From Algicola sagamiensis DSM 14643 (GTDB lineage: Bacteria > Pseudomonadota > Gammaproteobacteria > Enterobacterales > Alteromonadaceae), in contig NZ_KB894492.1 in assembly GCF_000374485.1 (NCBI RefSeq), forward strand, positions 146,508 through 210,507: a stretch of DNA of 64,000 bases. Direction: 5' to 3'. The first letter of the stretch is position 1. Each line of letters opens with the position of its first letter. Shown here in pieces: positions 9,961 to 15,314 of the stretch. The notes under the pieces were generated by a model, which saw nothing but the letters and a program-made list of their open reading frames with translations, ran no database searches and was not told the origin of the DNA. Both the position numbers and the translations under genes were made by a program.

Positions 9961-10788
9961 TTAAGCGACTTGGAAGAAACTCTGATCGGCCGGTGCCGTT
10001 GAACGTTGGTAGAAATTTGCGATACGGCCAGCGCGTTCATCAATTGATGGATCGCGTTGTGGTTGTTGTGGTCCTACAAAATTTTCCGAGTCTTCCTTAG
10101 AACGAACAGCGATGGACGTTGCTTCTTCACTGTTGTCGTCTGTTTCCAATCTGGCGCGAACTTCTTCTGCTTGAACTTTGGTCAGTTCAACCTGTGCATT
10201 GGCGATTTCTTGTGTGGCTTTTGCCGCAACGCGTCGATCAGCACCCGAAGGCTCAGCTGGTGCAAGTGCTGCGGCTTTGACAACTTGCATTTTTTGAATC
10301 GTTGCTTGCGGGTCATTTGGAACAGGGGAGACGTCAATTTGAACTTCTCCACCGACTGCATAATTGTTACCGTCAGGGCCTTTTTCAAATGTGTAACTTG
10401 GCGAACCTGCGTATTGACCGCCGACCGCTGCATGTGCTTGCTCGTGTGCGCGGACTTCTCGATCTCTTGCTTTTAACTTTTCTAGCCTTTGCTGGTCTTG
10501 TTGTTCCTGTTTTTGTTCGCGTTGATCTTCTTTCTGCTGGCGTTCTTGCTGATTACCATTACGCCCATCTTCATCAACATCTTGACGCTGAGCTTGCTTG
10601 CCCTCTGCCTGTTGGTTTTGAGAAGAGCCCGAACGTTCACGTTCACCCACACCTTTCTCGGGGGAATATTCATCGAGTTCGGTCGTTTGCTGGATGAGTT
10701 CGCGCTGGACATTATCGTTGCGCGCCAACTCCGTCGAAGGGTTCGCGGTAACAAGGTTGATGGTCGGATACGTCGTTACAATGTTCAC
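9961..10788 (-). CDS. SprA-related putative zinc metalloprotease
   Basis: The product is 275 residues. The first 105 residues are low-complexity (Gln/Glu/Arg-rich, probably disordered), then RDREVRAHEQAHAAVGGQYAG begins a compact domain: HEQAH (115-119) is an HExxH zinc motif, followed by SYTFEKGPDGNNYAVGGEVQIDVSP. This is the SprA-related family (the label CJM1_0395 metalloprotease is used in databases). No protease activity is demonstrated to my knowledge. There is no signal peptide. The start is a GTG 8 nt after the stop of the rod-like gene, so the two form an operon. Confidence 0.75.
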   Translation of the reverse strand: MNIVTTYPTINLVTANPSTELARNDNVQRELIQQTTELDEYSPEKGVGERERSGSSQNQQAEGKQAQRQDVDEDGRNGNQQERQQKEDQREQKQEQQDQQRLEKLKARDREVRAHEQAHAAVGGQYAGSPSYTFEKGPDGNNYAVGGEVQIDVSPVPNDPQATIQKMQVVKAAALAPAEPSGADRRVAAKATQEIANAQVELTKVQAEEVRARLETDDNSEEATSIAVRSKEDSENFVGPQQPQRDPSIDERAGRIANFYQRSTAPADQSFFQVA

Positions 10789-10796
10789 GAGCTTGA

Positions 10797-11108
10797 CTAT
10801 ACCGTGACGTCGATTATTGTGCCAAGGACTTCGTCGGCAGTCTCAATCGTTCTCGCATTGGCAGCTGCGTTTGTCTGTTCGGTGACAAGCTGTGTCAGAC
10901 TGTTTGTCACATTGGGTGGCGCTGCTGTTTCGAGCGGTTGCTCATTTCGAATTGCTTGGTCAGCCTGCTGGACTTGCTGCTGTTGTTCCCTTTGTTGCTG
11001 CTCCACAACGGGTTGACGTGCGATATCATTGGATGCTTCAGACACACCCAAAGAGGCTCGCTGAAAACCTTGTAATCCGGCTGATAGTGCGCCGTTGATT
11101 TCTGTCAT
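10797..11108 (-). CDS. Minimal flagellar rod/hook-like protein
   Basis: A 103-residue protein whose ends look like those of axial flagellar proteins: the N-terminus INGALSAGLQGFQRASLGVSEASNDIARQ resembles the rod/hook start (ALS.GL.A...R...S..NIAN), and the C-terminus VTEQTNAAANARTIETADEVLGTIID resembles the FlgG/FlgC end. The middle is only a Gln-rich linker, so the large domains of true rod proteins are missing. A strong Shine-Dalgarno (AGGGAG, 8 nt away) sets the start. No flagellar gene is nearby; its partner is the SprA-type gene immediately downstream. Function is unknown. Confidence 0.65.
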   Translation of the reverse strand: MTEINGALSAGLQGFQRASLGVSEASNDIARQPVVEQQQREQQQQVQQADQAIRNEQPLETAAPPNVTNSLTQLVTEQTNAAANARTIETADEVLGTIIDVTV

Positions 11109-11195
11109 ATGCTTCGCTCCCTCTGGAGATACACCACCATACGTCTAATTATTAACCTTTTCAGAGTAAATAGGAAGCCCATGATTAGAGAGAAT

Positions 11196-12752: not shown

Positions 12753-15314
12753 TTAATCTCCTGGCGTATCTAAGATATGACCAAAGAAGATTGCATTACC
12801 AAGTAACCGACTTGATCCATACCAAAAGCCTCGGAAAACAGGGTTATCCGCAAAGGCGATCACTTGCCCACGGCCTAGTTTGTGTGCCGCAAGGACGGTT
12901 TGTCCAGATAAGGCTTTTTGATATGGCTTGGCTGTAAACCCACTCAGTAGTGGTTTTTCTTGATAAGTGGCTACATTGACGGCACCGAATGCATGTGGTT
13001 TAAAGGAAAAAGTTCCCCGCTTGAATACAGGTAGCGCCTCCTCTTGTAAACCGAATCCAAGAGGATTGGATGTGTCGATTTGTGTCGCAAAGATTGCACC
13101 GGCAATACGCTTTTTCGAAGCATGATCATCTTGTTGCGCATATCGAACCGTATTTCCAGGGAACAATTTATTCAGCTCCGGCTGTCCTTTAAAGCTCATT
13201 TTGAGCAGCCCTTGTTGTGCTAGCCACTTTGCAGCTTTCCTTTGGCCCCAAAGGACACCACCTTGTTTGACCCAACGCATCACCTTTTCGGTTAAGGCTT
13301 CAGAGATCCCTTGATAGTTGCCATCGACCATGACCACATGTGTATAGTGAGAGAGTTGAATTTTGTGGAGTCGATCCAGCTCAACAATCGTTGGGGAAAT
13401 GCCGAGGTGGATATCCAGATAATGCCAGACCTCACCAGCTTCATAAGGGTTCGTTTGTTTACCACCGACAATGAGTACTTTGGGCTGCTTGAGGGCATAG
13501 GCCGAAGAGCTGCCTAAATCAATGCCCTTTGAGGTTAATGCTGAAGAGATAGGCTCGATAGCAACACCATATGTTTCCATCGTTTTTATTAAAATAACAT
13601 GGAGTTGATTGGTTGGTATTTTCTGTAAACCAGCAGGCAAAAATACAGTTCCAGCAGCAAAGGTTTGCTCTCCAGTTGGTGTGGTTGCTGTAAATTCTTG
13701 GCTAGCCACTTTGAGATAAAGCCTCTGGGAAAGTAGTGAGTGAACGGCTTTAGCTGCTGCGGAGTTGTTCCAGCGGATCCCGTAGGCAGCATGCTCACTA
13801 TTGAACTCAGGAAATGTGTTCTTGCTTTGCGCTTCCCAAGGGTGTGCTGCAAATGAGACAGAAGCTCTCCTTTTGACAACCTCAAATGGAAAATCAAAAG
13901 CATACGGGAGCGTCCAGGCTGAAACGTCATAAAAAGAATTATCTTTGAAATTTGTTTGCGTCATAAACAACGCTTTGATCAAACGGTACTGCGCTTGTTT
14001 CAATGGAATGAAATAAGTGTTTTCTTGATGGTATGTTTTCTGCTTTCCTTCATAATCTTTTGTGAGCGGGTAAGCTTGAATCTGATGCTGCGCAAGTATA
14101 CTCAAGAATGCTTGTGTTCGATAAAGATCGCCTTCTGTGTCAACAAGGTAGCCAGCCATTTTATCTTGTTCGGCCTGTTCACGGCTTTCTTCATAAAACT
14201 TGCTCTGGTAGTTGAGCAGTACGAGTCGGTTTTCAAAACTCCCTTTTAGGGTAGATAAGCTCGTGGTGATTTGATTTTGAATGGCTTGGGTAAAGGTCAA
14301 AACACCATGTTCAACTTGTTTTGCGTGTCCTCTGCTAGAGCCTTGTTCAAATAGAATACCAACACTGCCATTGATATCTGGATATGTTGAACCTTTGCCA
14401 AAATAGAAGTCGTCAAAGCTCTCTTCTGTAAAATAAAGCTGCTTTTTCTCATCAAGTGCTTTTGCATGATAGGTCGCAAGCTTTTTGGTCAACTCAACAT
14501 TTTTTTGTGGTGTAAGGGGGTTCTTGCGAGATGGGATCCCTGGTTGGAAAAAGAAAGAACTGTTTGAACCCATTTCGTGGGAGTCTGTTAATACGGTTGG
14601 CTTCCATTGGTGAAATTGAGCGACACGTGCGCGAGACTCTGGGTGTTGTAATAATAACCAGTCTCGATTTAAGTCAAACCAGTAATGATTCACACGTCCG
14701 CGGATCCAGCCTTGGACATGCTCTCGGTTCACAGGATCTGGGTTTGGGACAGTACTGCGATGCATATTCACCCAGTTTGCGAATCGATCCATGCCATCAG
14801 GGTTTAAACTCGGATCGATCAAGATCACCATTTTATCCAGCCACTGAGAGACAGTTTCACTTTGAGAAGCGGCAAGATAGTAGACGAGCGGGGCGACCGC
14901 ATTCGAGCCACTGGCCTCATCACCATGGACGCTATAGCCCATCCAAACTATCGCTTTGTCTTCTGTTGTTCGGAACGATGGGGACATTAATGCCTGACGG
15001 TGTTGTGCCTGAATATGGGATAATTTTGCTAGATTCCCAGCCGAGGAAACTTTAAGCAGATAAAGTGAGCGCTTTTGGTGTGTTTCACCTATTTTTTCGA
15101 GTTGTAGGCGCTCACTTCGTTCAGCAACCAAAGAAATATATCGAATCAGCTGATCATGTCGAAGGTGCCATTGACCAATCTCGACACCAATAACAGATTC
15201 TGGTGTTGGAATATTGGGATCAAATGGATGTCCTTCAGGAAAGAATTGGTGAGTTGGCAAGGCGTGAATAATTGCACTGAAAAATATAAGAAAACAACCA
15301 AATAACTGCTTCAT
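12753..15314 (-). CDS. Secreted M14-family zinc carboxypeptidase
   Basis: An 853-residue exported peptidase. The signal peptide is MKQLFGCFLIFFSAIIHA. The M14 domain begins near residue 45; zinc ligands are His130 and Glu133 in SVHGDEASG and His246 in TDSHEMG, with the expected LIDPSLNPDGMDRF (170-178) and FDLNRDW between them. About 450 residues follow, including a region like a class-I glutamine amidotransferase fold (LIVGGKQTNPYEAGEVWHYL), as in large secreted M14 proteins of marine bacteria. Probable periplasmic or extracellular peptide degradation. It interrupts the usual comF-nfuA adjacency. Confidence 0.85.
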   Translation of the reverse strand: MKQLFGCFLIFFSAIIHALPTHQFFPEGHPFDPNIPTPESVIGVEIGQWHLRHDQLIRYISLVAERSERLQLEKIGETHQKRSLYLLKVSSAGNLAKLSHIQAQHRQALMSPSFRTTEDKAIVWMGYSVHGDEASGSNAVAPLVYYLAASQSETVSQWLDKMVILIDPSLNPDGMDRFANWVNMHRSTVPNPDPVNREHVQGWIRGRVNHYWFDLNRDWLLLQHPESRARVAQFHQWKPTVLTDSHEMGSNSSFFFQPGIPSRKNPLTPQKNVELTKKLATYHAKALDEKKQLYFTEESFDDFYFGKGSTYPDINGSVGILFEQGSSRGHAKQVEHGVLTFTQAIQNQITTSLSTLKGSFENRLVLLNYQSKFYEESREQAEQDKMAGYLVDTEGDLYRTQAFLSILAQHQIQAYPLTKDYEGKQKTYHQENTYFIPLKQAQYRLIKALFMTQTNFKDNSFYDVSAWTLPYAFDFPFEVVKRRASVSFAAHPWEAQSKNTFPEFNSEHAAYGIRWNNSAAAKAVHSLLSQRLYLKVASQEFTATTPTGEQTFAAGTVFLPAGLQKIPTNQLHVILIKTMETYGVAIEPISSALTSKGIDLGSSSAYALKQPKVLIVGGKQTNPYEAGEVWHYLDIHLGISPTIVELDRLHKIQLSHYTHVVMVDGNYQGISEALTEKVMRWVKQGGVLWGQRKAAKWLAQQGLLKMSFKGQPELNKLFPGNTVRYAQQDDHASKKRIAGAIFATQIDTSNPLGFGLQEEALPVFKRGTFSFKPHAFGAVNVATYQEKPLLSGFTAKPYQKALSGQTVLAAHKLGRGQVIAFADNPVFRGFWYGSSRLLGNAIFFGHILDTPGD

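Follow-up and report, generated by a model that had tools for sequence, protein, structure and literature searches.

The 64,000-nucleotide stretch of the Algicola sagamiensis DSM 14643 genome analysed here (the window, on contig NZ_KB894492.1) carries two adjacent genes, a small gene followed by sprA. They encode a 103-residue protein resembling the two ends of the flagellar hook protein FlgE, and a putative zinc metalloprotease of the SprA-related family (PF12118). FlgE (PF06429, PF00460 and FlgE_D2, PF07559) has N- and C-terminal D0 helices, and the small protein has counterparts of both, in the same order and with the TADE-type C-terminal helix. The differences are considerable: FlgE has 400 or more residues while the small family has about 70–116, a disordered linker takes the place of the D1/D2 domains, the NNIAN-type signature is lost, and in the loci seen the gene lies outside flagellar clusters. 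Coupling of a hydrolase to an axial flagellar part is known from FlgJ, a rod cap with a muramidase domain, and from protease-bearing flagellins. In the present case, by contrast, the hydrolase and the axial module are separate proteins, and no sequence relation to either system is claimed.

The other partner also has described relatives. PF12118 was predicted in a published survey to adopt a zincin fold (PMC3650047). In Campylobacter jejuni, flgG mutants of two strains lack the SprA-related protein CJM1_0395 (26 kDa) in their supernatant, so that its presence there depends on flgG (PMC5223770). C. jejuni belongs to a different phylum, and the two proteins are likened here by the published family label. 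Identity of Cj0416 with CJM1_0395 was not established, and Cj0416 was not used. Among the open-licence literature no paper was found on the small family or the pair, and the papers found do not describe a flagellar association of PF12118 in Gammaproteobacteria, or a partner gene.

Results

The small protein and its kinship with FlgE

The rod/hook likeness of the small protein is weak for the single sequence but strong with a family profile. Alone, it reaches only 17.3 bits against Flg_bbr_C (PF06429; E = 0.0034), below the cut-off of 23, and gives a weak match to the FlgE model NF004238 (E = 1.3e-4). Relatives were matched in 25 of 41 searched genomes; at least one of them (in G037) is FlgE itself, and the rest are small proteins. 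The profile built from these relatives comprises 45 sequences, and alignment A1 comprises 43. Against the FlgE of A. sagamiensis (432 residues) the profile matches residues 3–31 and 385–430, in order, with the middle absent. Profile-profile alignment with hhalign scores 43.1 for the C-terminal helix (E = 5e-6) and 19.6 for the N-terminal helix, while the maximum among 20 column-shuffled control profiles is 14.9. FlgG, FlgF and FlgC all score lower than FlgE, and descent from any of these three was rejected, FlgE being the best-scoring. In a survey of the class, most flagellated genomes have as their next-best match a reading frame of FlgE size, matched at its C-terminus. Because the profile, hhalign and survey matches all point to FlgE, the small protein is, as judged from sequence, a hook protein reduced to two D0-like helices and a disordered linker. 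The original prediction had described it as rod/hook-like; the axial kinship stands but the rod likeness does not, and 'rod' should read 'hook', since FlgE is the closest axial protein tested.

The layout consists of an N-terminal D0-like helix, a Q-rich linker and a C-terminal D0-like helix similar to Flg_bbr_C. The predicted model likewise has two helices (residues 2–54 and 67–101; predicted local distance difference test, pLDDT, 67). Flg_bbr_C is matched by 14 of the 43 family members at E ≤ 0.01. None of the 43 matches Flg_bb_rod (PF00460), which holds the NNIAN-type signature, though the N-terminal helix itself still matches the FlgE N-terminus. With this signature lost, the protein is a relative of FlgE rather than a canonical member. 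It had been regarded as an orphan, a view that can no longer be held: it belongs to a large family of about 70–116 residues, present in many taxonomic families, with a linker that is variable and often Gln-rich. By a crude test for a Sec signal, no small protein has a long N-terminal hydrophobic run, and most SprA proteins lack one as well.

D1/D2 hook domains are not matched in the 103-residue protein and were found only in a full-length paralogue in genome G112. There, a 396-residue FlgE paralogue (L080:5083-6270) occupies the place of the small gene immediately upstream of sprA, and combines D1/D2 domains with the small family's own C-terminus (...VIETAEETIGSLFDATA). The canonical FlgE of G112 is encoded on a separate contig.

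The SprA-related partner

Assignment of the partner to PF12118 is clear (E = 4e-49; 168.2 bits against a cut-off of 27.3), as had been proposed from the sequence. Its HEQAH motif occupies residues 115–119, and HExxH is kept in 80 of 81 SprA open reading frames (ORFs), the sole exception being half of a split gene. About 29 residues past HExxH lies a conserved acidic residue, within the motif GPDGxxYAVGGEV (GPDG..YAV.GE/DV across the family). This position, 148, is E in 86% of SprA sequences and D in some others, and is a candidate third metal ligand. A further motif, AALAPA.PS..D (AALAPAxPS in the window protein), is nearly invariant. From these sequence features the partner is probably a zinc metalloprotease, with a putative proteolytic activity and a presumed substrate. 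The N-terminal arm is Q/E-rich, and prediction confidence is very low over its first ~73 residues, consistent with disorder; the description of both ORFs, including the disordered Q-rich arm before HEQAH and the close spacing of the genes, was accurate.

Structural comparison adds little. An AlphaFold model of SprA made from two sequences (mean pLDDT 62) has no Foldseek match at E ≤ 0.001, VIA-align of this weak model returns generic helical matches only (Z below 8), and a sequence search of the PDB with the protease gives no match. A D0-like tail on SprA, suggested by ends of the ...IDLYA type, was considered and rejected: hhalign found no match between either the tails or full SprA and the small family, FlgE or FlgG.

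Pairing of the two genes

In the first set of relatives, sprA adjoins nearly every small gene. Across 281 Gammaproteobacteria, the small protein occurs in 71 genomes, SprA in 61, and both in 44 (odds ratio, OR, 18.5; p = 3e-19), and the association persists when only FlgI-positive genomes are counted (OR 7.5; p = 9e-9). The genes are adjacent in 24 of the 44 two-gene genomes and unlinked in 20. Persistent pairing elsewhere in the class was the test set by the original prediction, and it is borne out by these counts. Adjacent pairs are on the same strand, the order being reversed in three loci (L076, L084 and L102), and their other neighbours vary. In further loci, mostly picked for a high SprA score, the small gene lies within the same short locus in 53 of 55. 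No third partner is shared, as each of the other neighbour clusters is confined to 9 or fewer of the 94 neighbourhoods.

Neither gene strictly needs the other, since 17 of the 281 genomes have SprA with no stand-alone small protein detected, and 27 (L130–L156) have the small protein with no PF12118 protein. The latter indicate that the small family has a role beyond the protease.

Co-occurrence with flagella

SprA follows flagella (FlgI) at the level of family, class and phylum, in tests that ignore phylogeny. In the host family, Alteromonadaceae (129 genomes), FlgI and SprA are both present in 110 genomes and both absent in 10, while 8 have FlgI only and 1 has SprA only (OR 137; p = 2e-9); several genera (g2, g8, g14 and g257) lack both. 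Within the class, FlgI is found in 58 of 61 SprA genomes versus 103 of 220 others (p = 2e-13), and in the phylum sample in 56 of 56 versus 275 of 341 (p = 1.6e-5). As protease carriers almost always carry flagella, the pair is better seen as a flagellar accessory than as an orphan envelope structure. The flagellated genomes that lack SprA mean that it is not essential for flagella.

The exceptions within the class are mostly explained. Genome G092, a fragmented assembly, is probably flagellated because flhA and several flg genes are present. In G116 (L081) neither flhA nor FlgI was detected, sprA is split into two ORFs, and the small gene, which lies close to a contig end, is incomplete; its congener G213, which has FlgI, carries both genes with sprA intact. 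In the single-contig genome G067 (L169, C1:2595000-2612000) flgBCDE run directly into chemotaxis genes and flhA and flgI are missing, while the small gene and sprA are retained. This flagellar cluster looks like the result of a recent deletion of the intervening genes.

Upstream elements

Sigma-28-like sites were sought as TAAAG-N14/15-GCCGATAA with at most 2 mismatches. Outside the host family, 14 of 61 loci have such a site ahead of the small gene, while control upstream regions have one in 6 of 704 cases (p = 2.5e-12); for unlinked sprA the count is 4 of 35 (p = 7e-4). Since sites of this type precede each gene, both appear to tend to carry late flagellar promoters, even when unlinked. Sigma-54 promoters show no enrichment.

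The host family differs. Its sigma-28-like sites do not exceed the control level, and in their place a palindrome (consensus GGTTAATAATTAACC) is strongly conserved upstream of the pair, with a CTTT-type element, also conserved within the family, ~19 nucleotides further upstream. A role of the palindrome as a regulon site throughout the genome was rejected, since its exact 12-mer core occurs once there. Variants with GTCAAT/ATTGAC halves are reminiscent of FleQ-type sites.

Organization of the locus

The coordinates are given in Table 1. The layout is operon-like, as in the other adjacent pairs, and the flanking genes encode an alpha/beta hydrolase (bioH-like) and a major facilitator superfamily transporter. 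As had been noted, no flagellar gene is near: the window lies on contig C2, the flg genes of the host are on C1, and its FlhA-type genes are on C9 and C4.

Table 1. Features of the small gene-sprA locus (positions within the window)
Feature	Position	Strand	Evidence or remark
Mini-hook gene (FlgE-related, 103 aa, ATG start)	10797..11108	minus	Profile matches and predicted model
SprA-related (PF12118) putative zincin gene (275 aa, GTG start)	9961..10788	minus	Pfam match, HEQAH
Intergenic gap of 8 nt, stop of small gene to start of sprA	10789..10796	minus	
Palindromic element GGTTAATAATTAGAC	11143..11157	minus	34 nt upstream of small gene

Two side observations concern the surroundings. Three genes upstream of the pair (12753-15314, minus strand) is a gene whose 853-residue product contains a domain of the zinc carboxypeptidase family Peptidase_M14 (E = 2.9e-18). 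The host genome also contains two FHIPEP (FlhA/SctV-type) genes (C4:214294-216273 and C9:131484-133454) versus one FlgI, which suggests a second, perhaps non-flagellar, type III system.

Discussion

Membership of the pair in the flagellar system is well supported; the division of labour, the activity and the substrate are what we infer. The reading that we favour, and hold to be reasonably probable, is that of a late flagellar accessory pair using flagellar type III export, in which a D0-only, hook-like protein docks or escorts a zinc protease. It draws on the kinship with FlgE, the pairing of the genes, their co-occurrence with flagella, the sigma-28-type sites outside the host family, and the C. 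jejuni supernatant result. The SprA protease, with its disordered and signal-less N-terminal arm, would take the flagellar channel out of the cell, and export of the small protein by the flagellar type III system is probable as well. Consisting of D0 alone, the small protein would most likely pack at the export gate, the rod or the hook in the manner of other axial proteins, and there contact the protease and escort, retain or dock it. The protease might then act at the base of the flagellum, along it, or outside.

Several observations weigh against this reading. The export evidence is confined to the SprA-related protein of C. jejuni, which is not an organism known to have this operon, and the CJM1_0395 deletion mutant grows normally and has wild-type motility (PMC5223770). 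In the host family itself sigma-28-like sites stay at control level, and a different element, the palindrome, is conserved. Each gene also occurs without the other, eight flagellated members of the host family lack SprA, and G349 keeps SprA with FlgI not detected; the co-occurrence statistics, moreover, take no account of phylogeny. Lastly, the Flg_bb_rod signature is absent from the small protein.

The same C. jejuni results can be read differently. If the protease were a secreted, effector-like enzyme for which the flagellar channel is just a way out, and the small protein a dedicated export adaptor or pilot instead of a structural subunit, then flagellum-dependent release, normal motility and the somewhat weaker interaction of the mutant with cultured cells (PMC5223770) would fit, as would late sigma-28-type promoter sites and disordered N-termini with no apparent Sec signal. 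However, an adaptor would not obviously need both D0 helices, which are kept, and a small protein that often occurs without SprA should have a role of its own; we regard this explanation as somewhat unlikely. A role in assembly, with the protease trimming or remodelling the axial structure, the peptidoglycan or the outer membrane at the growing flagellum in the manner of FlgJ, and the small protein as its anchor, is less likely again. It would account for the association between a D0 module of hook type and a hydrolase-like domain, and for the close tie to flagella. Yet C. jejuni swims normally without the protease, many flagellated genomes lack it, and it is apparently expressed late, from sigma-28-type promoters that act after the rod and hook are assembled. 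The earlier suggestion that the protease may process an axial assembly is conjectural.

An independent, non-flagellar envelope structure with its own processing protease, also proposed originally, would be in keeping with the lack of flagellar genes nearby and with a host-family promoter that is not of the sigma-28 type. The distribution of SprA makes it very improbable, given its absence from 10 of the 11 FlgI-negative members of the host family and the presence of FlgI in every carrier of the phylum sample. The idea of the small protein as an FlgE fragment, in decay or placed near sprA by chance, hardly merits consideration: the weak similarity of the single sequence would be explained, but not a conserved family whose D0-like ends are maintained across many taxonomic families, nor the sigma-28-like sites upstream.

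Within the favoured reading of an exported accessory pair, a more specific history can be proposed tentatively, and at somewhat less than even likelihood. The D0 core of a hook protein may have become specialised as a minor component, axial or docking, and now recruit a zinc protease that is exported by the type III route, in which case the FlgE paralogue of G112 could be a relic of the intermediate state.

Two uncharacterised families are thus tied to each other and to the flagellum, as a conserved and unnamed accessory system, and one of them, a Pfam family, had been linked to flagellum-dependent secretion by an isolated report. What were vague annotations become a testable system, comprising a minimal axial protein and an enzyme whose probable way out is the flagellar channel. 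The former could reveal the minimum that an axial protein must retain for export and packing. If the proposal is correct, many gammaproteobacterial flagella would have an enzymatic accessory that has gone unrecognised.
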